Below are positions 19,936 through 31,884 of a stretch of 32,809 nt of DNA, piece after piece. The stretch is taken from assembly GCA_947474005.1 (NCBI GenBank), contig CANJHI010000047.1, positions 1-32,809 on the forward strand, written 5' to 3'. Position numbers and translations under genes: made by a program. The notes beneath the pieces are model-generated. The model was not told the origin of the DNA. It did not search any database and saw only the letters and a list, made by a program, of their open reading frames with translations. The DNA is from Alphaproteobacteria bacterium (GTDB lineage Bacteria; Pseudomonadota; Alphaproteobacteria; Reyranellales; Reyranellaceae). Numbering within the stretch: the first letter of the stretch is position 1; the number at the start of each line of letters is the position of its first letter.

Positions 19936-20862
19936 ATGGACCTCACGCTCGCCGCCCGCGACGGCACGAAGCTCGCGGCCACCCTGTTCGAACCAGCCGC
20001 CCCCAACGGCGGCGCGATCCTGATCAACAGCGGCACCGGCATCGCGCGTCAATTCTACGGCGCCTTTGCCGGCCATCTCGCGTCGCGCGGCTTCACTGTG
20101 CTGACCTACGACTATCGCGGCATGGGCGGCTCGGAGAAGCCGCCTGCGGCAACCATGGAGGCGTGGGGCGGCGTCGATCAGCCGTCGATGATCGATCACC
20201 TCGCGCGGCTGGCGCCCGGCGCCACGCGCGCCGTGATCGGCCATTCCTTCGGCGGCCAGGTGCTGGGCCTCGCCGACAACATCGGCGAGTTGTCCGCCGC
20301 TGTGCTGATCTGCAGCCAGAGCGGACACTGGCGCCACTGGCCGCCCGGCCGGCGGCGGCTCCGCATGCTGACCTTGTGGTGGCTGCTGATCCCGGGTCTC
20401 ACGGCGGTGACGGGGCACTTTCCCGGAAGCTGGGTCGGCACTGCGAACCTGCCGGCGGGCATTGCGCGGAGCTGGGCGCGCTGGGGCCGCTCGCCCCACT
20501 ATGTCTGCGACGTGCGTGGCCGGCCGCTCCGCCCGCACAACCACGCGGTGACGTTCCCGCTGCGCTGGATGAGTTTCAGCGACGATCCGATCGCGCCCCT
20601 GAGCGCGGTCGAGGCGCTGCGGCCCTACTATCCGCACGCCGCCGTCGAACGTCTCCATCTCACGCCGGCCGACCTCGGCGCCGACTCGGTCGGCCATTTC
20701 GGCTTCTTCCGCAAGTCGATGCCGCGCAAGCCATGGGATGAAATTGCCGATTGGCTCGGCGATCAGATGCGGCAGACTGCTCCTCCATCGAAGTTGGAGG
20801 AGACAACCGCATGTCCGAGCCGCACGTTCTTGCCGAGGTCAAAGACGGTATCGGCTGGCTGA
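19936..20862 (+). CDS. Alpha/beta hydrolase
   Basis: The 308-residue product has a full catalytic set: oxyanion region NSGTGIARQFY (31-41), DYRGMGGS (59-66), nucleophile elbow GHSFGG (102-107, Ser104), acid Asp217 in SFSDDPIAP and His254 in GHFGFFR. Members in this group (serine aminopeptidase S33-like/YheT-like) are esterases or lipases of unknown substrate. Residues 280-308 overlap the first 52 bp of the next gene and look unstructured, so the C-terminus may be a read-on tail. The ribosome-binding site AGATCGGAG lies just upstream. It comes before a crotonase-fold gene whose ribosome-binding site lies in a hairpin inside this frame. Confidence 0.85.
   Translation: MDLTLAARDGTKLAATLFEPAAPNGGAILINSGTGIARQFYGAFAGHLASRGFTVLTYDYRGMGGSEKPPAATMEAWGGVDQPSMIDHLARLAPGATRAVIGHSFGGQVLGLADNIGELSAAVLICSQSGHWRHWPPGRRRLRMLTLWWLLIPGLTAVTGHFPGSWVGTANLPAGIARSWARWGRSPHYVCDVRGRPLRPHNHAVTFPLRWMSFSDDPIAPLSAVEALRPYYPHAAVERLHLTPADLGADSVGHFGFFRKSMPRKPWDEIADWLGDQMRQTAPPSKLEETTACPSRTFLPRSKTVSAG
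20781..20801 (+). promoter_or_regulatory. Hairpin masking the ribosome-binding site of the crotonase gene
   Basis: TCCTCCA (20781-20787) pairs perfectly with TGGAGGA (20795-20801) across 7 bases. The right arm is the Shine-Dalgarno sequence of the gene starting at 20811. The hairpin lies inside the upstream hydrolase frame, which runs on to 20862, so ribosomes finishing that gene would open it. This is a plain arrangement for translational coupling. Confidence 0.6.
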
Positions 20863-21611
20863 CGCTCAATCGGCCGGAGCAGCTGAACGCGCTGTCGATG
20901 GAGATGCGCGATCTGCTGATCGAGCATTCCGCCAAGTTCGAGAAGGACCCCGCGGTGCGCTGCGTGGTGATCCGCGGCGCCGGCACCCATTTCATGGCGG
21001 GCGGCGACATCAGGGGTTTCCACAAGTCGCTGACGACCGAGAAGGAGGCCCATCTCGCGGGCTTCGAGATGCGCGTCGTGAAGGCGCACCAGGCGATCTA
21101 CCAGATCCGCCGCATGAACAAGCCGGTGCTGGCCTCAGTGCAGGGCGCCGCCGCGGGCTTCGGCCTGTCGCTGATCCTGAACTGCGACCTCGCCATCGCG
21201 TCAGACGATTCCTTCTTCACCCTGGCCTACCGCCACATCGGCCTCAGCGCGGACGGCGGTGCCACCTACTTCCTGCCGCGCGTCGTGGGTGAGCGGAAGG
21301 CGCTCGAGATCGCGCTTTTAGGCGAGCGCTTCAGCGCGCAGGAGGCCAAGGACAACAACATCCTGAACTGGGTAGTCCCGAAGGATCAGCTCGCGGCCGA
21401 GACCGCGAAGATGGCGCGCAAGCTCGCCGACGGCCCGACCTTTGCGCTCGGCGTCGCCAAGAGCCTGATCCGCAACTCCTTCGACAACAGCTGGGACGAG
21501 CACTCACACCGCGAGGCCGAGGGCCTATCGGCCTGTGCGGCGACCGAGGATCATTTCGAAGGCCTCAATGCATTTCTCGACAAGCGCAAGCCCGCGTTCA
21601 AGGGGAGATAA
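20811..21611 (+). CDS. Enoyl-CoA hydratase/isomerase-family protein (isomerase-type active site)
   Basis: A 266-residue crotonase-fold protein. The start is ATG 20811 (MSEPHVLAEV), chosen because GGAGGAG lies 10 bases upstream; an in-frame extension to 20751 lacks family similarity. The oxyanion-hole segments are FMAGGDIRGF (61-70) and GAAAGFGLSL (112-120). The two glutamates that catalyse hydration in enoyl-CoA hydratase are replaced here (Ser119 and His142), while Asp148 in GLSADGGATYFLPR sits where PaaG-type isomerases have their catalytic aspartate. I infer double-bond isomerisation of an acyl-CoA rather than hydration. It overlaps the hydrolase by 52 bp and is followed by the MBL gene after 2 bp. 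Confidence 0.88.
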   Translation: MSEPHVLAEVKDGIGWLTLNRPEQLNALSMEMRDLLIEHSAKFEKDPAVRCVVIRGAGTHFMAGGDIRGFHKSLTTEKEAHLAGFEMRVVKAHQAIYQIRRMNKPVLASVQGAAAGFGLSLILNCDLAIASDDSFFTLAYRHIGLSADGGATYFLPRVVGERKALEIALLGERFSAQEAKDNNILNWVVPKDQLAAETAKMARKLADGPTFALGVAKSLIRNSFDNSWDEHSHREAEGLSACAATEDHFEGLNAFLDKRKPAFKGR

Positions 21612-21613
21612 CC

Positions 21614-22513
21614 ATGCAAGACCGCCACATCGGAGACGTCCGCGTCACCCGCATCGAAGAGCAGATGGGGCCGGGCTTTCCGGCCAAGGATTTCTTCCCG
21701 GAGTTCGAAGCCGACGCCTTCAAGGCCGAGCAGCACTGGCTGGCGCCGAATTATTTCCAGGCCGAGAGCGGGCGGCTGATGACGTCGATCCATTCCTGGC
21801 TGGTCCGCACCGGCAAGCACACCATCCTGATCGACGCCTGCAGCGGCAATCACAAGCCGCGCCCGGGCATGCCGCGCTTCGACATGCTGAACACCCAGTA
21901 CCTGGAACGGCTACGCGAGGCCGGCGTGCAGCCGGAGGAGATCGACTACGTGATGTGCACGCATCTGCATGTCGATCACGTGGGGTGGAACACGAAACTC
22001 GAGAACGGCAAGTGGGTGCCGACCTTCCCCAACGCCAAATACGTGATGTCGCGCACCGACCACGATCATTGGGCCGCCGTCGCCAAGCGGGCGGGCTCGG
22101 TGCCTTTCGAGGTCAACACCTATAACGACTCGGTGCTGCCCATCGTCGAGGCGAAGATGGCGGAGTTCGTATCGGGCGATCATGCGATGTGCGGCTGCCT
22201 CACCCTGAAGCCTGCGCCCGGCCATACGCCGGGCCAGATCCGGCTCGACCTCGAGTCGCGTGGCAAGCGCGCGATCTTCCCCGGCGACTCGCTGCACAAT
22301 CCGGTACAGGTGCCGCTATGGAAATGGAACAGCGTCTTCTGCGAGGACCGTAACCTAGCCCGCGCCACGCGCAACACGCTGCTGGCGGATTGCGTGGAGC
22401 AGGGGGCACTGCTGATGCCGGCCCATTTCGGCTCGCCGCACGCCGCCTACATCAAGTCGAAGGGCGACCGCTTCGAGCTCGACTGGGATTTCGACAACAA
22501 GCGCGGACGCTGA
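21614..22513 (+). CDS. MBL-fold metallo-hydrolase
   Basis: A 299-residue metallo-beta-lactamase-fold hydrolase with the full two-metal set: HLHVDH (117-122, the HxHxDH motif), His204 in PGHTPGQ, Asp225 in FPGDSLH and His271 in PAHFGS. There is no signal peptide. The family holds lactonases, thioesterases, sulfatases and glyoxalase II-like enzymes; the long N-terminal segment before the motif (GPGFPAKDFFPEF and so on) resembles quorum-quenching lactonase-like proteins, but the substrate is not readable. It begins 2 bp after the crotonase stop, within the same operon, and is the last plus-strand gene before a palindromic repeat. A role in opening or cleaving an acyl-CoA-derived ester is a guess. 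Confidence 0.9.
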   Translation: MQDRHIGDVRVTRIEEQMGPGFPAKDFFPEFEADAFKAEQHWLAPNYFQAESGRLMTSIHSWLVRTGKHTILIDACSGNHKPRPGMPRFDMLNTQYLERLREAGVQPEEIDYVMCTHLHVDHVGWNTKLENGKWVPTFPNAKYVMSRTDHDHWAAVAKRAGSVPFEVNTYNDSVLPIVEAKMAEFVSGDHAMCGCLTLKPAPGHTPGQIRLDLESRGKRAIFPGDSLHNPVQVPLWKWNSVFCEDRNLARATRNTLLADCVEQGALLMPAHFGSPHAAYIKSKGDRFELDWDFDNKRGR

Positions 22514-22672: not shown

Positions 22673-23644
22673 TCACTGCGTCGTGATCTTCGCCGTCTCG
22701 ACCACGCTCTTCCACTTTGGCACTTCGGCGTTGATCATGGCGGCGAATTCCTGCGGCGTGCTTGCGGTCGCGACGCCGCCGTAACCCACGAACTTCTGCT
22801 GCAGCTCGGGATTGGCCAGAACCTCGCGAATGGCGGCGTTCAGCTTGGCGATCACCGGCGCGGGCGTTCCCGCCGGCGCCAGGATGCCGAACCAGACGAC
22901 GGCCTCGTAGCCCGGCAGCGACTGGCCGATCGTCGGCGCGCCCGGCATCAGCGGCGAGGGCTTGGCGGTCGAGACCGCGAGCAGTTTCAGCTTGCCGGTC
23001 TTGACCGCGGCATCCTGCATGTCCGACGAGGTGGTGAGCAGCATCTTCACCTCGCCGTTCAGCACCGCCATGGTCGACGGCGCCTGGCCCTTGTAGGGCA
23101 CGTGGATCAGTTTCAGGCCGGCTTCCTTGCCGAACAACTCGGTGGCGAGGTGGCCGAACGAGCCCGCGCCCGCCGTCGCATACTCGACGCCATTGGGCTG
23201 CGTCTTGGCCCAGGCGATCAGTTCCTTGACGTTGTTGGCCGGCACGCTGGGATGGACAACCAGCGTCAACGGCGCGATCGAGACCAGCGACACCGGCGCG
23301 AAGTCTTTGATCGGATCGTAGCCCACGTCCTTCTGGATCAGCGGCACGATGGCGCTCGGCCCGTTGTTGCCGAACACCAATGTGTAGCCATCGGGCGCGG
23401 CAGTGGCGACCTGCTTGGTGCCGATGGCGCCGGCCGCGCCCGCCTTGTTGTCGACGATCACCGGCTGGCCCAGCACCTTCGACAGCGGCTCCTGCAGGGT
23501 GCGCGCCATGATGTCGGTGGTGCCGCCCGGTGCGTAGGGCACGACCAGCCGGATCGGCTTGTCGGGATAGGGCGCCTGCGCAGCGGCCGGCAGCGCGCCG
23601 AGGGCGAAAGCGAGACACAGAAGACCCGTCCGTCTTTTCATCAT
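22673..23644 (-). CDS. Tripartite tricarboxylate transporter substrate-binding protein (Bug/TctC family)
   Basis: A 323-residue periplasmic protein with a Sec signal (residues 1-23, MKRR...AAAQA). The Bug family hallmark YPDKPIRLVVPYAPGGTTD (26-44) follows immediately, then IVDNKAGAAGAIGTKQVA and PDGYTLVFGNN, and GTPAPVIAKLNAAIREVL near residues 255-272. Bug proteins bind carboxylates such as tricarboxylates, nicotinate or aromatic acids; many copies occur without the TctA/TctB membrane parts and none is present here. Two ATG codons in a row start the gene and overlap the CoA-transferase stop (ATGATGA); GGGAGG lies 6 bases upstream. It probably brings in the acid that the neighbouring CoA-transferase activates. 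Confidence 0.92.
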   Translation of the reverse strand: MMKRRTGLLCLAFALGALPAAAQAPYPDKPIRLVVPYAPGGTTDIMARTLQEPLSKVLGQPVIVDNKAGAAGAIGTKQVATAAPDGYTLVFGNNGPSAIVPLIQKDVGYDPIKDFAPVSLVSIAPLTLVVHPSVPANNVKELIAWAKTQPNGVEYATAGAGSFGHLATELFGKEAGLKLIHVPYKGQAPSTMAVLNGEVKMLLTTSSDMQDAAVKTGKLKLLAVSTAKPSPLMPGAPTIGQSLPGYEAVVWFGILAPAGTPAPVIAKLNAAIREVLANPELQQKFVGYGGVATASTPQEFAAMINAEVPKWKSVVETAKITTQ

Positions 23645-24765
23645 TGTTTCCTCCCGGAAATTTTCTGGAGTGTTGCTTCGGTGTCAGCGCCGAGCGCGGG
23701 GACGTCAGGGCCGACGCCGACCGATCCGTCGGCGAATTGGAAGGGCGGGTTCGGCACCAGGAAGGCGCCGGCGCCGTCATTCACCGTGGCCAGAGAACCG
23801 CGCGCGGCGAGCTGAGGGTCGGCCATCGCTTCGGACATGGTGAGATAGCGCGAGCAGGGCACACCCGCCGCCATCAGTAGGTCCTCGCATTCGCGCGCCG
23901 CGCGCGTCGACGTCCAGCCCTCGACGGCGGCCATCAGCGCATCCCAGTTCGTCGTGCGGGCCGCGACGGTGGCGAAGCGCGGATCGGTCTTCCACTCGGG
24001 ATGGCCCACCGCGTCGGCGAGCTGCTCGAAGTTGCGCTGGTTCACCGGCGCCACGATCACGAAGCCGTCGCGCGCCCGCATCGGCACATAGAGCGGCCGC
24101 CGCTCCTTCGACGGGAACTGCGCCTCCTGGCATTCGAAGACCAGCAGGTTGATCATCGAATCCATCAGCGCGACGTCAATGAACTGGCCGTTGCCGTGGC
24201 GCAGGCGCGCGATCAACGCCGTCTGGATCGCGCCGAAGGCGTAGACCGCGGCCAGCACGTCGGCCACGAAGATGCCGGTCTTGGCGGGCTTCTCCTGCCC
24301 ATCCTGATAGGTGAACTGCGTGTGATCGAAGCCGCTGGCGGCATGGATCACCGGCGCATAGGCCGGCTGCTCGGCGCGTGGGCCGGTCTGGCCGAAGCCC
24401 GAGATCGAGCAATAGACGAGATCGGGCTTTGTGGCGGACAGCGTCGCATAGTCGAGGCCGAGGCGCTTCATGACGCCGGGCCGGAAATTCTCGACCACGA
24501 CATCGCTCGCGGCGACCAGATCCTGCGCGGCCTGGCGTCCCTCGGCGCTCTTGAGATCGAGCGCGACGCTCTTCTTGCCGGCATTGAGATGGCCGAAGTA
24601 GGTGCTGTGGCCGTCGCGCAGTGGCGGGCGGGAGCGCATGTGGTCGCCATGCGGCTCTTCTATCTTCAGCACCTCGGCGCCGCAGTCGGCCAGCAGGCGC
24701 GTGCAGTAGGGACCGGCGATCATGCTGGTGAAATCGACGACCCGCATGCCGGCGAGGGACTTCAT
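23641..24765 (-). CDS. CaiB/BaiF-family (class III) CoA-transferase
   Basis: A 374-residue family III CoA-transferase, which moves CoA between carboxylates through a mixed anhydride on an aspartate. The start MAGLxVVDF-type sequence is MRVVDFTSMIAGPYCTRLLADCGAEVLKIE (7-36), with VVENFRPGVM near 90-99 and YCSISGFGQTGPR (118-130). Asp169 in FVADVLAAVYAFG is the catalytic aspartate by position (Asp169 in formyl-CoA transferase). The gene shares overlapping stop/start bases with the Bug gene downstream. A 62-bp palindromic repeat separates it from the FadR-family gene upstream, ending 15 bp before its own ribosome-binding region. Confidence 0.92.
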   Translation of the reverse strand: MKSLAGMRVVDFTSMIAGPYCTRLLADCGAEVLKIEEPHGDHMRSRPPLRDGHSTYFGHLNAGKKSVALDLKSAEGRQAAQDLVAASDVVVENFRPGVMKRLGLDYATLSATKPDLVYCSISGFGQTGPRAEQPAYAPVIHAASGFDHTQFTYQDGQEKPAKTGIFVADVLAAVYAFGAIQTALIARLRHGNGQFIDVALMDSMINLLVFECQEAQFPSKERRPLYVPMRARDGFVIVAPVNQRNFEQLADAVGHPEWKTDPRFATVAARTTNWDALMAAVEGWTSTRAARECEDLLMAAGVPCSRYLTMSEAMADPQLAARGSLATVNDGAGAFLVPNPPFQFADGSVGVGPDVPALGADTEATLQKISGRKQ

Positions 24766-24779
24766 TGGGTCAAGCCTCT

Positions 24780-24841
24780 TCCGGACCGCGAGCCTCCGGC
24801 TCGCTCGGATTCATGAGCGAGCCGGAGGCTCGCGGTCCGGA
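24780..24841. repeat. Palindromic intergenic repeat, family A copy 2
   Basis: Arms 24780-24806 and 24815-24841 are exact complements over 27 bases with an 8-base loop. Each arm has an inner palindrome (GAGCC-TCC-GGCTC). The outer part CCGGACCGCG and the CGCTC end match copy 1 (8251-8319); the inner stem letters differ from copy 1 by paired changes. It lies between the regulator stop and the start of the CoA-transferase gene. Confidence 0.88.
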
Positions 24842-24853
24842 GGATAAGACTCA

Positions 24854-25588
24854 TCAATTCATCCCCTTCTTCGCGCGATGCGGCGCCATGCGGTCGCGAT
24901 AGCGGCCGCGCAGGCTTTCGAGATGCTCGGTCATCGCCGTCACCGCGGCGTCGGCATCGCGCTTGTGCAGCGCTGCCAGCAGGCGCCGGCGCGCCTTGAT
25001 GGTGAGGTCGTTGCGCTCGCCGCCGGCGGCATGAGCGAAGTCGCGCATGACCTCCATCAGCGCGCCCATCAGCATGGCCATGACGGCGTTGCCGGTGGCG
25101 CGGGCCAGCAGATTGTGGAACTCGATATGGATATCGATCTTGTCGTCGTAGCGCTTGGCGTTTAGCAGGCGCTCGGCCTCGTCGACGTTGGCGGTCAGCG
25201 CGGCAAGATCGGCCTCGGTGGCGCGCGCGCAGGCATTGCGCACGACAGTCGAGGCGAGCCACAGCCGCGCTTCGGTCAACTCGTCGAGCGACACGCTGCC
25301 GAGCTGGTAGAGGTTGCGGAAGCTGTCGCCGATCAGGCCGGGATCGCCCTGGCCGATGAAGGCGCCGCCGTGGGCGCCCGCCTGCAAGGCAATGAGGCCG
25401 GTGCGTTCGAGATTGCGCAGCGCCTCGCGCACCGCGCCGCGGCTCACGCCAAAGCTTTCCGCCAGCTCGCGCTCCGGCGGCAGCTTGTCGCCCGAGCGCA
25501 GCTCGCCCGAGGCGATGCGCCCCTGGATCTGCGCCGAGACTTCGTCGGATAGCCGCTTGCGCTTGATCGGGGCGAAGTCCTGGTTCAC
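24854..25588 (-). CDS. GntR-family regulator, FadR/FCD subfamily
   Basis: A 244-residue GntR regulator. The winged helix is at about 12-78: VSAQIQGRIASGELRSGDKLPPERELAESFGVSRGAVREALRNLERTGLI. The C-terminal FCD helical domain (about 100-225) has LDELTEARLWLAS at its start, DIHIEFHNLLARATGN (152-167) and EHL (221-223). His158 and His222 fit the metal-binding histidines; a third histidine is usually found near residues 200-203, but Arg stands there, so metal binding may be altered. FCD proteins sense acyl-CoAs or organic acids. The start is GTG, overlapping the IpdA-like stop by 4 bp. As the last gene of the P450 operon it is expected to repress it at 30823-30837. Confidence 0.92.
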   Translation of the reverse strand: MNQDFAPIKRKRLSDEVSAQIQGRIASGELRSGDKLPPERELAESFGVSRGAVREALRNLERTGLIALQAGAHGGAFIGQGDPGLIGDSFRNLYQLGSVSLDELTEARLWLASTVVRNACARATEADLAALTANVDEAERLLNAKRYDDKIDIHIEFHNLLARATGNAVMAMLMGALMEVMRDFAHAAGGERNDLTIKARRRLLAALHKRDADAAVTAMTEHLESLRGRYRDRMAPHRAKKGMN

Positions 25589-26478
25589 GACGCGCTCCCG
25601 GCCGTGAGGCCGGCCAGCGCCTTGGCGCCGATGCGATCGCGATAGCCGTCCTCGCCGCCGCGCACATGGTCGGTGAGATAGGCGTCGAATGCCGCCTGGT
25701 CGCGACTGGCGGCGACATAGGCCCGGAGGTGCGCCTCGTCCTGCTCGTAGAGACCGGAGCTGGCGCCGGGATGGCCGCCGAACGGCGCCACGACGACGGC
25801 ATCGACGAAGGCCGAGGGGATTTTGGTAAGGCGCGCCTGGTGGCGCACCGTGCTCGACGGCACGATGCGGTCGACCGAGCAGATCACGTGCCTGGCTGCC
25901 TGCGCCATCAGCAGGTCGAAGTAGCCCGCGCCGAAATACTGCACGTTGCCTTCCTCGTCGGCCTGCTGGCCGTGCAGGAACACGACATCGGGCTTGATCG
26001 CCGGCACTTCGAGCAGCGGCCGGCCGCCTTCCTGGATGCGGGCCTTGCGATAGCCCTCGGGATTGACCTTGGGCAGGTCGGTGCCGAGATTGGGGATCAG
26101 CCCGTAAGGCAGGTCGCAGGCACCAGCGCGCAGGCCGCCGGCGATGCCGGGCCCGTCCATCTCCAGCACCTTTATCGCGCCCGACTGTGCCGCGCGCCGG
26201 AAGTTGGGCGCGAGCCCCAGATGCTCGAAGCTGATGAAGACGCAGGCCGTCGTCTTCACGCAGCCCGCGCCGATCAGCATGTCGGGCGCGACGCTGCCGG
26301 GCGAGGGCACCAGCGTGAGATCGCGCACGCCCTTGCGGATCAGGCCGCGCACCAGCGCCATCGGCTGGCCATGGAAGATCCAGCCGCCGATGCCCAGCGT
26401 CATGCCGTCCTTGACGACGGAGAGGGCGGTATCGAGGTCGACGACTTTCTTCGAGACGGATTTGCTTGAAGCGGGCAT
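25585..26478 (-). CDS. IpdA-like CoA-transferase-fold protein, subunit alpha
   Basis: A 297-residue class I CoA-transferase-fold alpha subunit, in which TLGIGGWIFHGQPMALVRGLIRKGVRDLTLV (27-57) and FGGHPGASSGLYEQDEAHL (residues 233-251) run close to IpdA, the mycobacterial alpha subunit of the cholesterol-ring hydrolase IpdAB. Glu106 in VLEMDGPG is in the position of the catalytic glutamate I recall for IpdA (about 105). Alternative: an ordinary 3-oxoacid CoA-transferase, but the beta subunit lacks the catalytic glutamate. The gene sits between acyl-CoA dehydrogenase (4 bp) and the FadR-type regulator (4-bp overlap), separated from its beta partner by the dehydrogenase gene. It acts only as a complex with the 27645-28457 product. 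Confidence 0.88.
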   Translation of the reverse strand: MPASSKSVSKKVVDLDTALSVVKDGMTLGIGGWIFHGQPMALVRGLIRKGVRDLTLVPSPGSVAPDMLIGAGCVKTTACVFISFEHLGLAPNFRRAAQSGAIKVLEMDGPGIAGGLRAGACDLPYGLIPNLGTDLPKVNPEGYRKARIQEGGRPLLEVPAIKPDVVFLHGQQADEEGNVQYFGAGYFDLLMAQAARHVICSVDRIVPSSTVRHQARLTKIPSAFVDAVVVAPFGGHPGASSGLYEQDEAHLRAYVAASRDQAAFDAYLTDHVRGGEDGYRDRIGAKALAGLTAGSAS

Positions 26479-26482
26479 GGCG

Positions 26483-27634
26483 TTACCTCCGCAGCATGTC
26501 GCGGGCGATCACCAGACGCTGGATCTGGTTGGTGCCCTCGAAAATCTGGTTGATCTTGGCGTCGCGCATGAAGCGCTCGACCGGGAAATCGCGCATGTAG
26601 CCGGCGCCACCGAAGATCTGCACCGCGTCGGTCGTCACCTTCATGGCGGTGTCGCTGCAGAAGCATTTCACCATCGACGACTTGGCCGAGAAGCTCGCCC
26701 ATTCCTCGCGGTCGGCCATGCGCGTGCAGTCGTAGAGCAGGCAGCGCGCCGCCTCGGTCTGCATCTGCATGTCGGCCAGCATGAACTGGATGCCCTGGAA
26801 CTCGGCGATCGGCTGGCCGAACTGCTTGCGTTCGCGGCCGTAGCCGACGGCGGCATCGATCGCGCCCTGCGCCAGCCCGACCGAGATCGCGCCGATGGTC
26901 GGCCGGTTGAGGTCGAGGATGCGCATGCAGGTCTTGAAGGCCTGGCCCTCGGGACCGATCATGTTCTCTGCGGGCACACGCACATTGTCGAAGAAGATCG
27001 GCGCATTGGGCACGCCACGAATGCCCATCTTGCGATCGAGCTTGCCGTAGGAGAAGCCGGGCGTCTTGGTGTCGACGAGGAAGGCCGAGATGCCGTTGGC
27101 GCCCTTGCCCTCGCTGGTGCGGGCAAACACCAGGATGAAGTGCGCGACCGGTCCGAAGGTGATGTAGATCTTGCCGCCGTTCAGCACCCAGCTCGCGCCG
27201 TCCTTCACCGCCCGCGTCTTCATCGACGACACGTCTGAGCCGGTGCCGGCCTCGGTGATGGCGACGGCCGTCAGCGTGCGGCCCTTGGCGGCGAGCCCGA
27301 GATAGTGGCGCTTCTGTTCCTCGGTGCCGAAGTTCAGGATCGGCAGCACGAGGCCGAAGGAATTGTTGGCGGCCAGCAGGGCGGCCGATTCGGAGACCTT
27401 GGCGATCTCCTCCTTGACGATGCAGACCGACGTGAGGTCGGCGCCCGGCCCGCCATATTCCTGCGGCACCCAGAGCTGCAGCAGCCCCATGTCGCCGAAC
27501 ACTTCCACCAGCTCCTGCGGAAAGCGGTCGTTCTCGTCGATCTCCGAGGCGATCGGCGCCACGTGCTTTTCGACCATCTTGCGCACCTGGTCGCGCAGCA
27601 GCAGGTGGTGTTCTTCGAAATGATAGTTATTCAT
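26483..27634 (-). CDS. Acyl-CoA dehydrogenase
   Basis: A 383-residue standard acyl-CoA dehydrogenase: MNNYHFEEHHLLLRDQVRKMVEKHVAPIA at the start, LTAVAITEAGTGSDVSSMKTRAV near 121-142 (FAD and substrate contact), GYGRERKQFGQPIAEFQGIQFMLADM in the middle, and DAVQIFGGAGYMRDFPVERFMRDAKINQIFEGTNQIQRLVIAR at the end. The catalytic base is Glu366 in IFEGTNQ, the position seen in short- and medium-chain dehydrogenases. It lies between the two IpdAB-like genes (10 bp and 4 bp gaps), and so oxidises an acyl-CoA that the ring hydrolase produces or consumes. Electrons would go to ETF, whose genes are not in this window. Confidence 0.95.
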   Translation of the reverse strand: MNNYHFEEHHLLLRDQVRKMVEKHVAPIASEIDENDRFPQELVEVFGDMGLLQLWVPQEYGGPGADLTSVCIVKEEIAKVSESAALLAANNSFGLVLPILNFGTEEQKRHYLGLAAKGRTLTAVAITEAGTGSDVSSMKTRAVKDGASWVLNGGKIYITFGPVAHFILVFARTSEGKGANGISAFLVDTKTPGFSYGKLDRKMGIRGVPNAPIFFDNVRVPAENMIGPEGQAFKTCMRILDLNRPTIGAISVGLAQGAIDAAVGYGRERKQFGQPIAEFQGIQFMLADMQMQTEAARCLLYDCTRMADREEWASFSAKSSMVKCFCSDTAMKVTTDAVQIFGGAGYMRDFPVERFMRDAKINQIFEGTNQIQRLVIARDMLRR

Positions 27635-27644
27635 CGGTCGAACC

Positions 27645-28457
27645 TCAGTGGGCCTTGGGCCAGGGAAATTTGCGCGCCAGTACGCCGGTCGAGTCGACGG
27701 TGCGGCGCAGCAGGAACAGCTCCTCGTCGTCGGGGTTGGCGGTGCGTTCGATCTTCGCCGGCATCACCAGGTCGAAGCCGGTGTTGTCGCGCACCTCGTC
27801 GAGGGTGACGCCATCGTGCAGCGACTTGATACGCATCGCCTTGCTCGCCGGTTCGAAGTCGAAGACGCCGAGCGGAGTCACGACCAGGCGCGGCCCGCCT
27901 TCGGACAGGCCGAAGTCGGTGCGCGAGGTGCCGCCGTCGAGGAAACCCGCGCCGCAGACGAAGTCGACCTTAGGGACAAAGGCGCCGCGGTCGTGGCGGG
28001 TCATCATGATGTAGAAGCGCCGCGACAGGCCGCAGAGCGCGCTGATGCCCACCGTGCCGGGGCCGCGCAGCCGCGGCTTCGCATGATCGCCGACGCAGAC
28101 GGTGTTGATGTTGCCGAAGCGATCGGTCTGCAGCGCGCCCAGGATGGCGAAGTCGAAGAAGTGAACCTGCCAGTCGATGAAGTCGATCATCTGCGGCAGG
28201 TCCATCACGGCCTCGGCCACCGCGATGTTCTCGGCGTCGGCGGCAGGACGGACGATGCCCTCGGTCGGGTTGGTCATGCCGCCGGGCCCCGACACCCACC
28301 ACAGATGCGGCGCCTGGCGCTGGCGCGCGAGGTTGCACGCCGCGACCTGGATGTCGGAGTTGGTGCCGACGATGGCCTTCTCGCCGTCGGCCATGTCGCG
28401 CGACAGCAGCACGGCCAGCATCTCGCCCATGGCGAAGCTATTGGTGGTTACGGGCAT
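27645..28457 (-). CDS. IpdB-like CoA-transferase-fold protein, subunit beta
   Basis: A 270-residue class I CoA-transferase-fold beta subunit. Its C-terminal half, LGVFDFEPASKAMRIKSLHDGVTLDEVRDNTGFDL (about 208-243) with DDEELFLLRR, closely follows IpdB as I recall it. The early segment HLWWVSGPGGMTNPTEGI (51-68) aligns with the place where true transferases have the catalytic glutamate (SENG); here it is Ser-Gly-Pro-Gly-Gly, so ordinary CoA transfer by that residue is unlikely. With the alpha subunit at 25585-26478 it should form a ring-cleaving acyl-CoA hydrolase of the IpdAB type. The substrate could be a steroid-, terpenoid- or other alicyclic acyl-CoA. It is 33 bp after the MDR gene. Confidence 0.88.
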   Translation of the reverse strand: MPVTTNSFAMGEMLAVLLSRDMADGEKAIVGTNSDIQVAACNLARQRQAPHLWWVSGPGGMTNPTEGIVRPAADAENIAVAEAVMDLPQMIDFIDWQVHFFDFAILGALQTDRFGNINTVCVGDHAKPRLRGPGTVGISALCGLSRRFYIMMTRHDRGAFVPKVDFVCGAGFLDGGTSRTDFGLSEGGPRLVVTPLGVFDFEPASKAMRIKSLHDGVTLDEVRDNTGFDLVMPAKIERTANPDDEELFLLRRTVDSTGVLARKFPWPKAH

Positions 28458-28490
28458 TTCCTGAGTCCTGCTGAAGGTGGCTGGGGCATG

Positions 28491-29471
28491 TCATGTCGAG
28501 GCGACTTCGAAGATCGTTTTGGCAATTCCCTCTCCACTCAAGGCGTAGGTGAGCGCCTCGCGGTAGTGGTCGAACGCAAAGGCGCGGCCGGCCGGCGGAA
28601 CGAGCTGCCCCTCGGCGACCCAGGCGAGCAGTTCGTCGAATTCCCGCTGGGCCGCGGCTGCCTCGAACACGGCGGAGAACTGGCGATAGTCGACACCGAC
28701 CAAGGCGGCACCCTTGAGCAGCGGCAGGTTGACGGGCAGGGCGGGAATCTCGCCCGAGGCAAAGCCGATCACCAGATAGCGTCCGCCCCAGTTGAGCGAG
28801 CGAAAGGCCGGCTGTAGCAGCGGGCCACTGACGGGATCGAACACGACGTCGATGCCGCCGGGCACCGCTGCCTTCAGGCGATCGCGCCAGCCCTCGGGAT
28901 CGCGGTCGAGTGTGATCTCGGCGCCGCTTTGCGCGGCTAGCGCACGCTTCTCTTGTGTCGACGCCACCGCGACGACGCGGGCGCCCAGTAGTTTGCCGAT
29001 CTGGACGGCGGCGCTGCCGACGCCGCCCGCGGCGCCGATCACCAGCAGCGTCTCGCCGGGCTTGATGTGTGCACGATCGCGCAGACCATGCAGCGCGGTG
29101 ACGTAGTTGACGCGAAAGCCCGCGGCCTGGCCGAGCTGCATGCCGTCCGGAATCCGATTGACCGCCGTTGCGGGTGCCACGGCATATTCGGCGAAGCCTC
29201 CGCGCACCTGCGCCAGAACGCGGTCGCCGGGCGCGAACCCCGTGACGCCGCTGCCGACCGAATCGATCCAGCCCGAGACCTCGCCGCCCGGGACATGGGG
29301 CAGCGGCGGCTTGACCTGGTAGCGGCCGAGCGAGACCAGCGCGTCGACATAGCCGACGCCGCAGGCGGCGATCCTGATGCGGACTTCGGCAGGCCCCGGC
29401 TCGGGTCTGTCGAGGTCGACCACGCGGTAGCTGTCGATCGAACTGAGGTTGTCGGCCTGGATCGCCTTCAT
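28491..29471 (-). CDS. Zinc-free MDR oxidoreductase (NADPH:quinone reductase-like)
   Basis: A 326-residue medium-chain dehydrogenase/reductase. The start MKAIQADNLSS at 29471 is typical of the quinone reductase/enoyl reductase group; a longer in-frame extension to 29726 lies inside the P450 gene and is a shadow. The nucleotide motif is GAAGGVGSAA (146-155). The cysteine lobe that binds structural zinc is missing, and HVPGGEVSG (59-67) plus NYVTALHGL (122-130) match the zinc-independent quinone oxidoreductases. It probably reduces a double bond or ketone of the P450 product, or acts as an enoyl-thioester reductase. It lies 22 bp after the P450 gene and 33 bp before the IpdB-like gene. Confidence 0.9.
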   Translation of the reverse strand: MKAIQADNLSSIDSYRVVDLDRPEPGPAEVRIRIAACGVGYVDALVSLGRYQVKPPLPHVPGGEVSGWIDSVGSGVTGFAPGDRVLAQVRGGFAEYAVAPATAVNRIPDGMQLGQAAGFRVNYVTALHGLRDRAHIKPGETLLVIGAAGGVGSAAVQIGKLLGARVVAVASTQEKRALAAQSGAEITLDRDPEGWRDRLKAAVPGGIDVVFDPVSGPLLQPAFRSLNWGGRYLVIGFASGEIPALPVNLPLLKGAALVGVDYRQFSAVFEAAAAQREFDELLAWVAEGQLVPPAGRAFAFDHYREALTYALSGEGIAKTIFEVAST

Positions 29472-29493
29472 CTGTCTGGCTGTCCTGTTCGGT

Positions 29494-30771
29494 TCAATGC
29501 ACGAGACCAATCCGCACCGGCAGCGCCTTGAAGCCGCCGACCAGGTTGGCGTGGATGCGCTGGGCGTCGCCCGCCGGTTCGATGCTGTCGACCCGCCGCA
29601 CGAAGGCGCGAAGAAACGTCGTGAGCTCGAGACGGGCCAGCGACAGGCCGAGGCACATGTGGCCGCCGAAGCCGAAGGCGAGATGCCTGTTCGGGGTGCG
29701 CTCGATGTCGAAGCGGAACGGGTCATCGAAGACCGCGTCGTCGCGGTTGGCCGAGGGATAGAAGAGGGCGACGCCGTCGCCGGCGGCGATGGTCGTATCG
29801 CGCAGCCGATAATCCTCGCGCGCCGTGCGCAGGAAATGTTTGACCGGCGATACCCAGCGCAACATCTCCTCGACGGCGCCTTTGATCTTCTCCGGATCGG
29901 CCCGGAGTTTTAGCCACTGATCCGGATTTTCCAGGAGAGCCAGGAGACCGCCGGCCGTCACGGCGGCCGTCGTGTCGTGCCCGGCGGTGGCAATCACCGC
30001 GTAGTACGACGCGGTTTCCAGATCGCCCATCGGTCCGTCGTAGGGCCGGCCGCAGGCGATCACGGTGGCGAGGTCGTCGCGCGGCTGCTTGCGCCGGTCG
30101 GCGGCCATGGCGGTGAAATAGTCGAAGAATTGCCGCAGCAGATCGAAGTGCTGGCCGGTGCTGGCGCCATCACCGCCCCCATCGCCACTGAGATCGGCAT
30201 CGTCGGCGCCGAAGAATTCCTGGGTCAGCCGCAGCATCAGCGGCTGGTCCTCGCGCGGCACGCCCAGGATCGACATGATCACGCGCAGCGGAAAGAGGTT
30301 CGCCACCTCGCGCGCGTAGTCGAACGGTGCGCCGCCGAAGGTCGCGATGTGGTCGAGCGATTCTTCGGCGAGGGTTGCGACGGCTGCTTCGAACTTCCGC
30401 ACCCCGGGGCCCATGAACCATTCGGTGGTGACGCGGCGGTATTCGCGGTGGTCGGGATTATCCATGTGGGCGACCGTCCGATACATGCGGTCGTACTTGC
30501 CGCCGGACTTCTTGGCCGCCGCTTCTTGCGCACGCGTCATCAGGTTGAGGCGGCGGCTGTTGATGAAGACGTCGTTCTTGCGCGACACCTCCATGATGTC
30601 GGCGTGGCGCGTCAGCGCCCAGAACGGGCGGTAGTCGGCGGGCTCGGTCCAATGGACCGGCGAGGTCCGGCGCAGTTCCGAGAACAGGGCATGGATGCGG
30701 TCCTCGTCGGCGTGGACGGCCGGCGATACCAGCGCATCCGCCAATTCCATGGGCGCCAGCTCGGTGGACAT
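29494..30771 (-). CDS. Cytochrome P450 (soluble bacterial type)
   Basis: A 425-residue soluble P450 with all core motifs: ExxR at 302-305 (EMLR), the I-helix oxygen-activation motif AGHDTT (263-268), and the heme loop FGFGGHMCLG (366-375, Cys373 the thiolate ligand). No membrane anchor is seen. It belongs to the broad CYP1xx bacterial group; CYP125/142-like members of steroid catabolism and terpene P450s share the AGxDTT and FGxGxHxCLG patterns, so family number is open. As first gene of the operon it would hydroxylate the substrate. No ferredoxin or ferredoxin reductase is encoded next to it, so electrons must come from elsewhere. The start codon ATG 30771 lies 48 bp below the candidate -10 box. 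Confidence 0.93.
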   Translation of the reverse strand: MSTELAPMELADALVSPAVHADEDRIHALFSELRRTSPVHWTEPADYRPFWALTRHADIMEVSRKNDVFINSRRLNLMTRAQEAAAKKSGGKYDRMYRTVAHMDNPDHREYRRVTTEWFMGPGVRKFEAAVATLAEESLDHIATFGGAPFDYAREVANLFPLRVIMSILGVPREDQPLMLRLTQEFFGADDADLSGDGGGDGASTGQHFDLLRQFFDYFTAMAADRRKQPRDDLATVIACGRPYDGPMGDLETASYYAVIATAGHDTTAAVTAGGLLALLENPDQWLKLRADPEKIKGAVEEMLRWVSPVKHFLRTAREDYRLRDTTIAAGDGVALFYPSANRDDAVFDDPFRFDIERTPNRHLAFGFGGHMCLGLSLARLELTTFLRAFVRRVDSIEPAGDAQRIHANLVGGFKALPVRIGLVH

Positions 30772-31092: not shown

Positions 31093-31884
31093 CTAGCGGC
31101 CCTTCCAGTTGGGCTTGCGCTTCTCGGCGAAGGCCTTGGGGCCCTCGACCGTGTCCTCGCTGTGCGCCATGGCGACGAAGGCGGGGTAGCTCTGGTTGCG
31201 CATCGCCATCTCGGTCGCCGGCACGTCGAGCGAGCGCATCACCACCTGCTTGGTGGCGCGTACCGACATCGGCGAGCAGGCGAGGATCTCGGAGGCCCAG
31301 CGCTTGGCTGCCGTCATCAGCTCGGCGTGCGGCACCACCTCGGTGACGAAGCCCATCTCGTAGCCTTCCTTGGCCGGCACGTGGCGGCCGGTCAGCATCA
31401 TGCCCATCGCCTTCTTGAGCGGGATCATGCGGGAGAGGCGCTGCATGCCACCCGCACCGGCGGCCAGGCCAACGCGCGGCTCGGGCAGGGCGAACTTCGC
31501 CTGGTCGGACGCGATGATGATGTCGCTGGCCAGCGCGATCTCGAAGCCGCCGCCCATGGCGAGGCCGTTGACCGCGGCGATGACGGGCTTGTCGAGGTCG
31601 AAGCGGTTGGCGAGGCCTCCGAAGCCTTTGGCCGGATGGACCGGGCGCTTGCCGGTCTTGGCCTGGATCTCGGCGTGGTACTTGAGGTCGTTGCCGGCGC
31701 AGAAGGCCTTGTCGCCGGCGCCGGTGATGATGGCGACCCACAGTTCCGGGTTGGTCTGGAACTCGTCGAAGGCATCGACCAGCTCTTGGTTCGCCATGGG
31801 ATGGCAGGCGTTATAGACCTCTGGCCGGTTGATGGTGACGATCATCAGGCGACCGTCGATCTCGACCTTGCTGTACTGACCCAT
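31093..31884 (-). CDS. Enoyl-CoA hydratase
   Basis: A 263-residue crotonase-fold hydratase. The start is ATG 31884 (MGQYSKVEIDGRLMIVTINRP), chosen because GGGAGGC lies upstream and the residues before it in the frame (to 32193) have no family similarity. The oxyanion holes are AFCAGNDLKYH (60-70) and GLAMGGGFEIALASD (107-121). Both hydration glutamates are present: Glu115 in GGGFE and Glu135 in ALPEPRVGL, so this should be a true hydratase, unlike the isomerase-type protein at 20811-21611. It precedes the P450 operon on the same strand but is separated by 321 bp with a hairpin, so it may be an independent transcript. It could still serve the same beta-oxidation path. Confidence 0.92.
   Translation of the reverse strand: MGQYSKVEIDGRLMIVTINRPEVYNACHPMANQELVDAFDEFQTNPELWVAIITGAGDKAFCAGNDLKYHAEIQAKTGKRPVHPAKGFGGLANRFDLDKPVIAAVNGLAMGGGFEIALASDIIIASDQAKFALPEPRVGLAAGAGGMQRLSRMIPLKKAMGMMLTGRHVPAKEGYEMGFVTEVVPHAELMTAAKRWASEILACSPMSVRATKQVVMRSLDVPATEMAMRNQSYPAFVAMAHSEDTVEGPKAFAEKRKPNWKGR

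Follow-up and report, generated by a model that had tools for sequence, protein, structure and literature searches.

Gene content of the locus

The window, by which we mean the whole analysed stretch of 32,809 nucleotides (nt) of contig CANJHI010000047.1 (assembly GCA_947474005.1, a soil alphaproteobacterium of the family Reyranellaceae), carries on its minus strand a run of eight genes that encode a cytochrome P450, an MDR reductase, the beta subunit (B) of an enzyme with the class I CoA-transferase fold, an acyl-CoA dehydrogenase, the alpha subunit (A) of the same enzyme, a FadR-type regulator, a CaiB/BaiF class III CoA-transferase and a TctC-type periplasmic binding protein (Table 1). Judged by the aligned residues, the A/B pair is without the transferase glutamate, the IpdA glutamate and the AibB cysteine; it forms a clade of its own, and a palindrome co-occurs with the operon. 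Our preferred reading, held tentatively and at slightly less than an even chance, is that the eight genes form a regulated catabolic unit in which A/B would break a C-C bond in a bulky acyl-CoA, cyclic or branched, with no covalent glutamyl intermediate being formed.

The original prediction had described the six genes from the P450 gene to the regulator gene as a nearly gapless run. These members were all recovered in place on the minus strand, with spacings of 22, 33, 10 and 4 nt from the P450 gene through those of MDR, B and the dehydrogenase to A, and with an overlap of A and the regulator gene. The predicted end of the run at the regulator did not hold, as the CaiB and TctC genes continue on the same strand and bring the total to eight. 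The regulator and CaiB genes are separated by 88 nt with a perfect hairpin inside, a gap that a single transcript presumably spans. The eight-gene unit is well-bounded and apparently self-regulated.

Table 1. Features of the window discussed in the text
Feature	Position	Strand	Remarks
Enoyl-CoA hydratase family protein	31093..31884	-	upstream of the predicted operator
Palindrome TTGGTCCGACCAA	30824..30836	.	predicted operator of the FadR-type regulator
Cytochrome P450, CYP108-like	29494..30771	-	Pfam p450, matches to solved structures, identities
MDR reductase, quinone-oxidoreductase type	28491..29471	-	
B, beta subunit of class I CoA-transferase-fold enzyme	27645..28457	-	Pfam CoA_trans; Gly57; clade motif WW[VI]SGPGGM
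Acyl-CoA dehydrogenase	26483..27634	-	between the B and A genes
A, alpha subunit	25585..26478	-	CoA_trans; Glu85, Asp108, Gly109
FadR-type regulator	24854..25588	-	GntR helix-turn-helix and FCD; GTG start; 4-nt overlap with A
Perfect inverted repeat	24783..24838	.	24-base arms 24783-24806 and 24815-24838; between FadR and CaiB; dispersed repeat family
CaiB/BaiF class III CoA-transferase	23641..24765	-	
TctC-type periplasmic binding protein	22673..23644	-	4-nt overlap with CaiB

Residues and clade of the A/B pair

The two-subunit CoA_trans fold is present by Pfam and by structural matches, the predicted model of B being poor (mean predicted local distance difference test score, pLDDT, 65.5). 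Because of this weak model we did not use the structural ranking of B, in which glutaconate CoA-transferase (GCT, 14.3), AibB (13.9) and IpdB (13.6) are tied. At the place of the catalytic glutamate of the transferases B has SGPGG, and its Gly57 aligns with Glu54 of GCT, the residue that forms the anhydride and that is replaced by Gly57 in IpdB according to PMC5380842. This glycine was found in the window and in 42/42 rows of the clade (i.e. aligned sequences), bearing out the predicted loss of the class I glutamate. No SENG motif turned up elsewhere in B; the SEGG at residues 185-188, considered as a displaced version, was rejected because it aligns with the GLPGDVGP stretch of GCT and is not conserved. 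We likewise rejected the idea that Glu72 of AibB is kept as Asp74 of B: a hand count starting at the residue in which the AibB variants differ puts Glu72 at Ala73, and Asp74 is common to most transferase rows too.

For A, the original prediction had put Glu106 at the catalytic place of IpdA, which is wrong. The identity of IpdA Glu105 was taken from the title of PDB entry 6coj (IpdAB E105A) and from the IpdA chains of 6co6 and 6coj, which differ at one aligned residue; it aligns with Gly109 of A, and Glu106 sits three residues before. Residue 109 is Gly in 40/40 clade rows and in AibA, and Glu in 5/5 IpdA rows (the R. jostii chain, Novosphingobium, Caballeronia, Streptomyces and one further genome) and also in four rows of other branches (Rhodoc_B4, Azosp_1, Azosp_2 and G044c). 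Of the 40 clade rows 24 have Glu and 16 have Asp at residue 106, where the seven transferase rows likewise have one or the other. The catalytic residue of IpdA is thus not kept in A.

Two further alpha positions were compared across the families. Asp was found at alpha residue 108 in 40/40 clade rows, the five IpdA rows, AibA, Rhodoc_B4, Pseudosulf and two G141 rows, whereas Ser or Thr occupies it in 7/7 rows that keep the beta glutamate; alpha residue 85 is Glu in 40/40 clade rows and Asp in 5/5 IpdA rows. By this pattern the clade would be grouped with the two enzymes of the fold in which a C-C bond is broken.

In trees, which took 41 of the 61 A rows and 40 of the 62 B rows, the pair formed its own clade outside IpdAB (IpdA clade 100/100) and outside the glutaconate and 3-oxoadipate CoA-transferases. 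Clustering with ordinary 3-oxoacid CoA-transferases did not occur, and by its residues too the pair is no ordinary 3-oxoacid CoA-transferase. AibA and AibB were long branches, so their exact place is unsure. IpdAB (the hydrolase of steroid degraders that cleaves the ring of COCHEA-CoA; PDB 6co6, 6co9 and 6coj) resembles A/B in being a heterodimer, in its fold and in beta Gly57 and alpha Asp108, but differs in Glu105 (Gly109 in A), in its separate clade and in its operon partners, at identities of about 33-36% (A) and 26-28% (B). AibA/AibB (3-methylglutaconyl-CoA decarboxylase of Myxococcus; PDB 5mzw) shares the fold, the lack of the transferase glutamate and an alpha E-x-D-G motif, but has Cys56 in AibB where the window has Gly57 (identity 32% for A and 25% for B). 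The GctAB and CatIJ-like enzymes (glutaconate and 3-oxoadipate CoA-transferases) have the same fold and subunit plan, whereas the window pair lacks their catalytic beta glutamate, stands in a separate clade and has alpha Asp108 in place of their Ser or Thr. In the open-licence literature, judged on titles and the starts of abstracts, we found no work on the A/B clade; the source name attached to many of the homologs listed is glutaconate CoA-transferase.

More distant pairs were also seen. The Rhodococcus opacus B4 plasmid pROB02 (L059, 11938-16176) has an A/B pair with 40% and 37% identity, followed by two genes annotated as CoA transferase; the beta glutamate is missing, a glutamate stands at the IpdA position, and the pair falls on a separate branch. 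The A/B pairs of L063 (Pseudosulfitobacter) and of L054/L056 have a gap at the position of the beta nucleophile and Ala at that of the IpdA glutamate; the L063 pair adjoins several acyl-CoA dehydrogenases, a TRAP transporter and a thiolase.

Distribution and partner genes

By scanning genome contigs with two peptide patterns of the clade we obtained 39 loci, all of which were examined and 37 of which hold both subunits; by their titles they fall in the Alpha-, Beta- and Gammaproteobacteria. Two of these titles perhaps belong to mislabelled metagenome-assembled genomes, namely L013 (Rhizobium sp. Q54), with a B 99% identical to that of the window, and L026 (Bordetella parapertussis). The nearest named relatives were mostly from Reyranella and its kin, which makes Reyranella the probable genus of the window. 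A profile of A was matched at E 1e-60 or better by four of 289 genomes of the class (own genome included): besides the own genome, only G129 (6e-148) scored clade-like, and two further genomes gave three matches (G141a, G141b and G186), all outside the clade.

The separation of the subunit genes by an acyl-CoA dehydrogenase gene, originally regarded as unusual, is not peculiar to this genome, as it was found in 16/37 loci, 12 of them close kin of the window's operon and four further off (L036, L038, L043 and L050). A CaiB relative with more than 50% identity lies at most 2.5 kb downstream of A in 22/37 loci. The front genes were found less often: a P450 with more than 80% identity in 5/39 loci and such an MDR in 6/39, one of which (L018) keeps the MDR without a P450. 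In L024, a Reyranella locus that lacks the P450, B is preceded by a branched-chain-type ABC transporter, verified in this one locus. For 61 genomes of the genus (own included, drawn from a larger group) the dehydrogenase of the operon was used as a proxy for the operon (B itself was looked for in 36 of the others, with finds in six), which gave 12 carriers. A P450 with more than 90% identity occurs in six of the 61, all six among the carriers, and three more genomes (loci L083-L085), two of them carriers, have a P450 with 50-53% identity. With a close P450 in these few loci, in 6/61 genus genomes and in half of the carriers (6/12), the P450 is not a core part of the unit, and P450-MDR is rather a swappable front end.

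The closest solved relatives of the P450 are P450terp, 3tkt (which we take to be CYP108D1) and P450tol, at identities of 36.8% (1cpt) and 40.3% (3tkt); membership of CYP108 goes by about 40% identity to its members. No ferredoxin gene was found among the nine neighbouring proteins of the window that were scanned for domains. The MDR, originally predicted to be zinc-free, has an 'oxidoreductase' and quinone oxidoreductases as its nearest solved chains; it might also be an AibC-like reductase. Four Bradyrhizobium loci (of the 39) have CYP108-like P450s; the first Bradyrhizobium P450 shows 46-48% identity to P450terp, and the second about 44% to that of the window. CYP108-like P450s stand alongside A/B in two lineages. 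In an annotated Variovorax plasmid (L057) a Rieske oxygenase occurs with the palindrome of A/B described below. These differing P450 and Rieske partners, together with the palindrome sites, suggest that A/B is part of a lower pathway with interchangeable oxygenases.

A predicted operator upstream of the unit

Both a GntR helix-turn-helix and an FCD domain were found in the regulator, in agreement with the prediction that the operon has a FadR-type regulator gene of its own. The operator consensus of the FadR subfamily is palindromic, of the type TGGT-N3-ACCA, and a palindrome of this type, here the predicted operator, lies before the P450 gene. The sequence TTGGTNNNACCAA has a single match in the window, at this site and 52 nt ahead of the first base of the P450 gene, against 0.01 expected by shuffling, and occurs at two places in the whole genome, the second inside an open reading frame that we take, from its sequence, to be umuC-like.

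The short form TGGTNNNACCA was found ahead of the unit in 33/39 loci, six times before the P450 or MDR gene and 27 times at most 80 nt before the B match; it sits before P450/MDR where they precede B, and otherwise before B (L045 offers no upstream sequence for the search). Over the 39 loci there were 60 palindrome matches, compared to 7.25 on average over 20 mononucleotide shuffles. The 16-mer form ATTGGTCNGACCAATA occurs in 9/61 genus genomes, all nine among the 12 dehydrogenase carriers and none among the 49 others (Fisher p 1.3e-8, with shared descent ignored). The exact 16-mer is missing from the carriers G006, G325 and G337, of which the first has the shorter form close to B (L005).

Palindromes away from A/B were followed in 12 loci, with a domain scan of some of the downstream proteins. 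In L057 the sites lie between the genes of the pairs Rieske oxygenase/nitroreductase, TctC/FadR, long dehydrogenase/another FadR and thiolase/ligase, before another dehydrogenase and at the annotated first base of B, which for that reason probably starts slightly later. In Bradyrhizobium, Steroidobacter and Variovorax loci the palindrome precedes genes for a binding protein (with a ligase gene next to it) and, elsewhere, for a fused dehydrogenase, MaoC hydratases, thiolases, ligases and an SDR protein.

Neighbouring features

The inverted repeat between the FadR and CaiB genes belongs to a dispersed family: its arm occurs 20 times in the genome at two mismatches or fewer (eight times exactly), and the variants show compensating changes in the internal stem, as in a REP-like family. 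The enoyl-CoA hydratase family gene upstream of the predicted operator is probably on a transcript of its own; relatives with 87-96% identity were found in 8/39 loci. On the plus strand, at 20751-22513 and convergent with the operon, lie genes that we take, by their motifs, to be enoyl-CoA hydratase-like and metallo-beta-lactamase-like; several Reyranella-type loci have close relatives of these in the vicinity of this operon.

Possible function of A/B

For the substrate class, the order of steps, the A/B reaction, the repression and the inducer we infer the following scheme. The FadR-type regulator would hold the unit off at the one palindromic operator until the substrate or its CoA ester opens it. 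TctC or another transporter would import the acid, the CoA ester would be made by CaiB, a task that in some relatives falls to an AMP-forming ligase, and the acyl-CoA dehydrogenase would desaturate the ester. A/B could then cleave a C-C bond, using water to open a ring or else decarboxylating the substrate, with an enolate bound in the active site and no side chain acting as nucleophile; the candidate acid/base residues are alpha Asp108 and Glu85. The core would be B/A, often plus the dehydrogenase and CaiB, and P450-MDR an optional front end with which some strains would oxidise a hydrocarbon precursor, terpene-like or otherwise.

Several observations favour this scheme. Loss of the beta glutamate to Gly57 also marks IpdB (PMC5380842), and IpdAB cleaves a ring, while alpha Asp108 is shared by IpdA, AibA and the clade and replaced by Ser or Thr where the beta glutamate is kept. 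AibA/AibB still works after replacement of Cys56, according to PMC7756340, indicating that a C-C-cleaving enzyme of the fold needs no reactive residue there. Also in favour are the palindrome ahead of most loci, the restriction of the 16-mer to dehydrogenase carriers, the additional palindromes of some relatives (before genes for a P450 or Rieske oxygenase, a fused dehydrogenase, an acyl-CoA ligase, a thiolase and a MaoC hydratase) and the CYP108-like P450s beside A/B in two lineages.

There are also points that weigh against C-C cleavage in a regulated unit of this kind. Azosp_1, Azosp_2, G044c and G037 lack the beta glutamate yet have Ser, Pro or Thr at alpha 108, G039 has alpha Glu85 despite its beta glutamate (the sole such case among the seven rows), and the Asp108/Glu85 pattern was spotted post hoc in few rows and lineages. 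No palindrome was found before B in L037 and L046-L049. A close P450 is absent from 34/39 loci and a close MDR from 33/39, and in one genome of the genus, G344, a P450 with 50% identity occurs although the dehydrogenase of the operon is missing. Nor does the P450 imply a terpenoid, as CYP108D1 is tabulated as an aromatic hydrocarbon hydroxylase (PMC8197338). Finally, a protein without the known catalysts could, by analogy with ThnP as described in PMC11659651, move CoA within one diacid.

This last point underlies the main rival, namely that A/B is an intramolecular CoA-transferase, shifting CoA between the carboxyls of an alicyclic or branched diacid via an internal anhydride and so readying the substrate of the adjacent dehydrogenase, which we judge unlikely. 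ThnP of anaerobic naphthalene degradation, compared here by its description in PMC11659651, has Gly for the catalytic glutamate and serves a partner acyl-CoA dehydrogenase by shifting CoA between the carboxyls of an alicyclic diacid, the anhydride route being a proposal of its authors. The position of the dehydrogenase gene between the subunit genes would fit such a role, as would the pimeloyl-CoA-dehydrogenase-like pairs near A/B in L036 and L035 (below the cut-offs of the models). The same description, however, places ThnP in the Cat1-like subgroup, another branch of the family, expressed as one gene and not as a GCT-type heterodimer, and the clade has the alpha Asp108 of IpdA and AibA instead of the Ser or Thr of the beta-Glu rows. 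Both C-C cleavage and a CoA migration like that of ThnP are compatible with the sequences. Somewhat less doubtful, and overlapping the other readings of A/B, is that P450 and MDR were joined by chance and that A/B serves simple branched or dicarboxylic fatty acids instead of cyclic compounds; the rarity of the close P450, the MDR of L018 without P450 and the transporter that takes their place in L024 agree with this. Where a P450 is present, however, the palindrome precedes it, and the more distant P450s beside A/B in Bradyrhizobium include one locus of the four (L035) with the palindrome before the P450 group.

The function originally proposed, a true IpdAB-type hydrolase that opens the ring of a keto-cyclohexene-carboxyl-CoA by the IpdAB mechanism, has become very improbable for all the likeness in fold and beta glycine. 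The catabolic setting would still fit a cyclic or branched acid, but the key residue is wrong, with Gly109 for Glu105 throughout the clade, and the pair lies outside the IpdA clade. In addition, the genome (5.68 Mb, 316 contigs, 93.8% complete), scanned for CoA_trans, has four matches, i.e. two adjacent pairs, one of them A/B of the window. The search for steroid genes covered this family, and the nine scanned window proteins include unassigned crotonases and gave no IpdC-like gene. We give equally little credence to the reading, for which the fold and the source names of many homologs speak, that A/B is an ordinary intermolecular CoA-transferase whose glutamate is displaced or dispensable: Gly57 is invariant in the clade, and in CtfAB the exchanges E46D and E46S gave a hydrolase and an inactive enzyme, respectively, by the titles of PDB entries 9cq2 and 9cry.

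Implications

A wider form of the preferred C-C cleavage reading, which we put forward as possible but rather doubtful, is that the clade represents a third catalytic type of the glutaconate-CoA-transferase fold, lacking all known catalysts (transferase Glu, IpdA Glu105 and AibB Cys56), in which Asp108 and Glu85 would bring about C-C cleavage in bulky acyl-CoAs, alicyclic or terpenoid, and that the genes are a regulated lower-pathway cassette spread across proteobacteria that takes up P450 or Rieske oxygenases. Judged by the residues, the name glutaconate CoA-transferase that many clade proteins bear is probably wrong. In Bradyrhizobium, Variovorax, Steroidobacter and Reyranella the palindrome predicts genes of the route, and the inducer would be open to assay through operator release. 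C-C cleavage without the known catalysts, if true, would be a new active-site solution in a well-studied fold and would add a route into the breakdown of terpenoid, naphthenic or branched acids.

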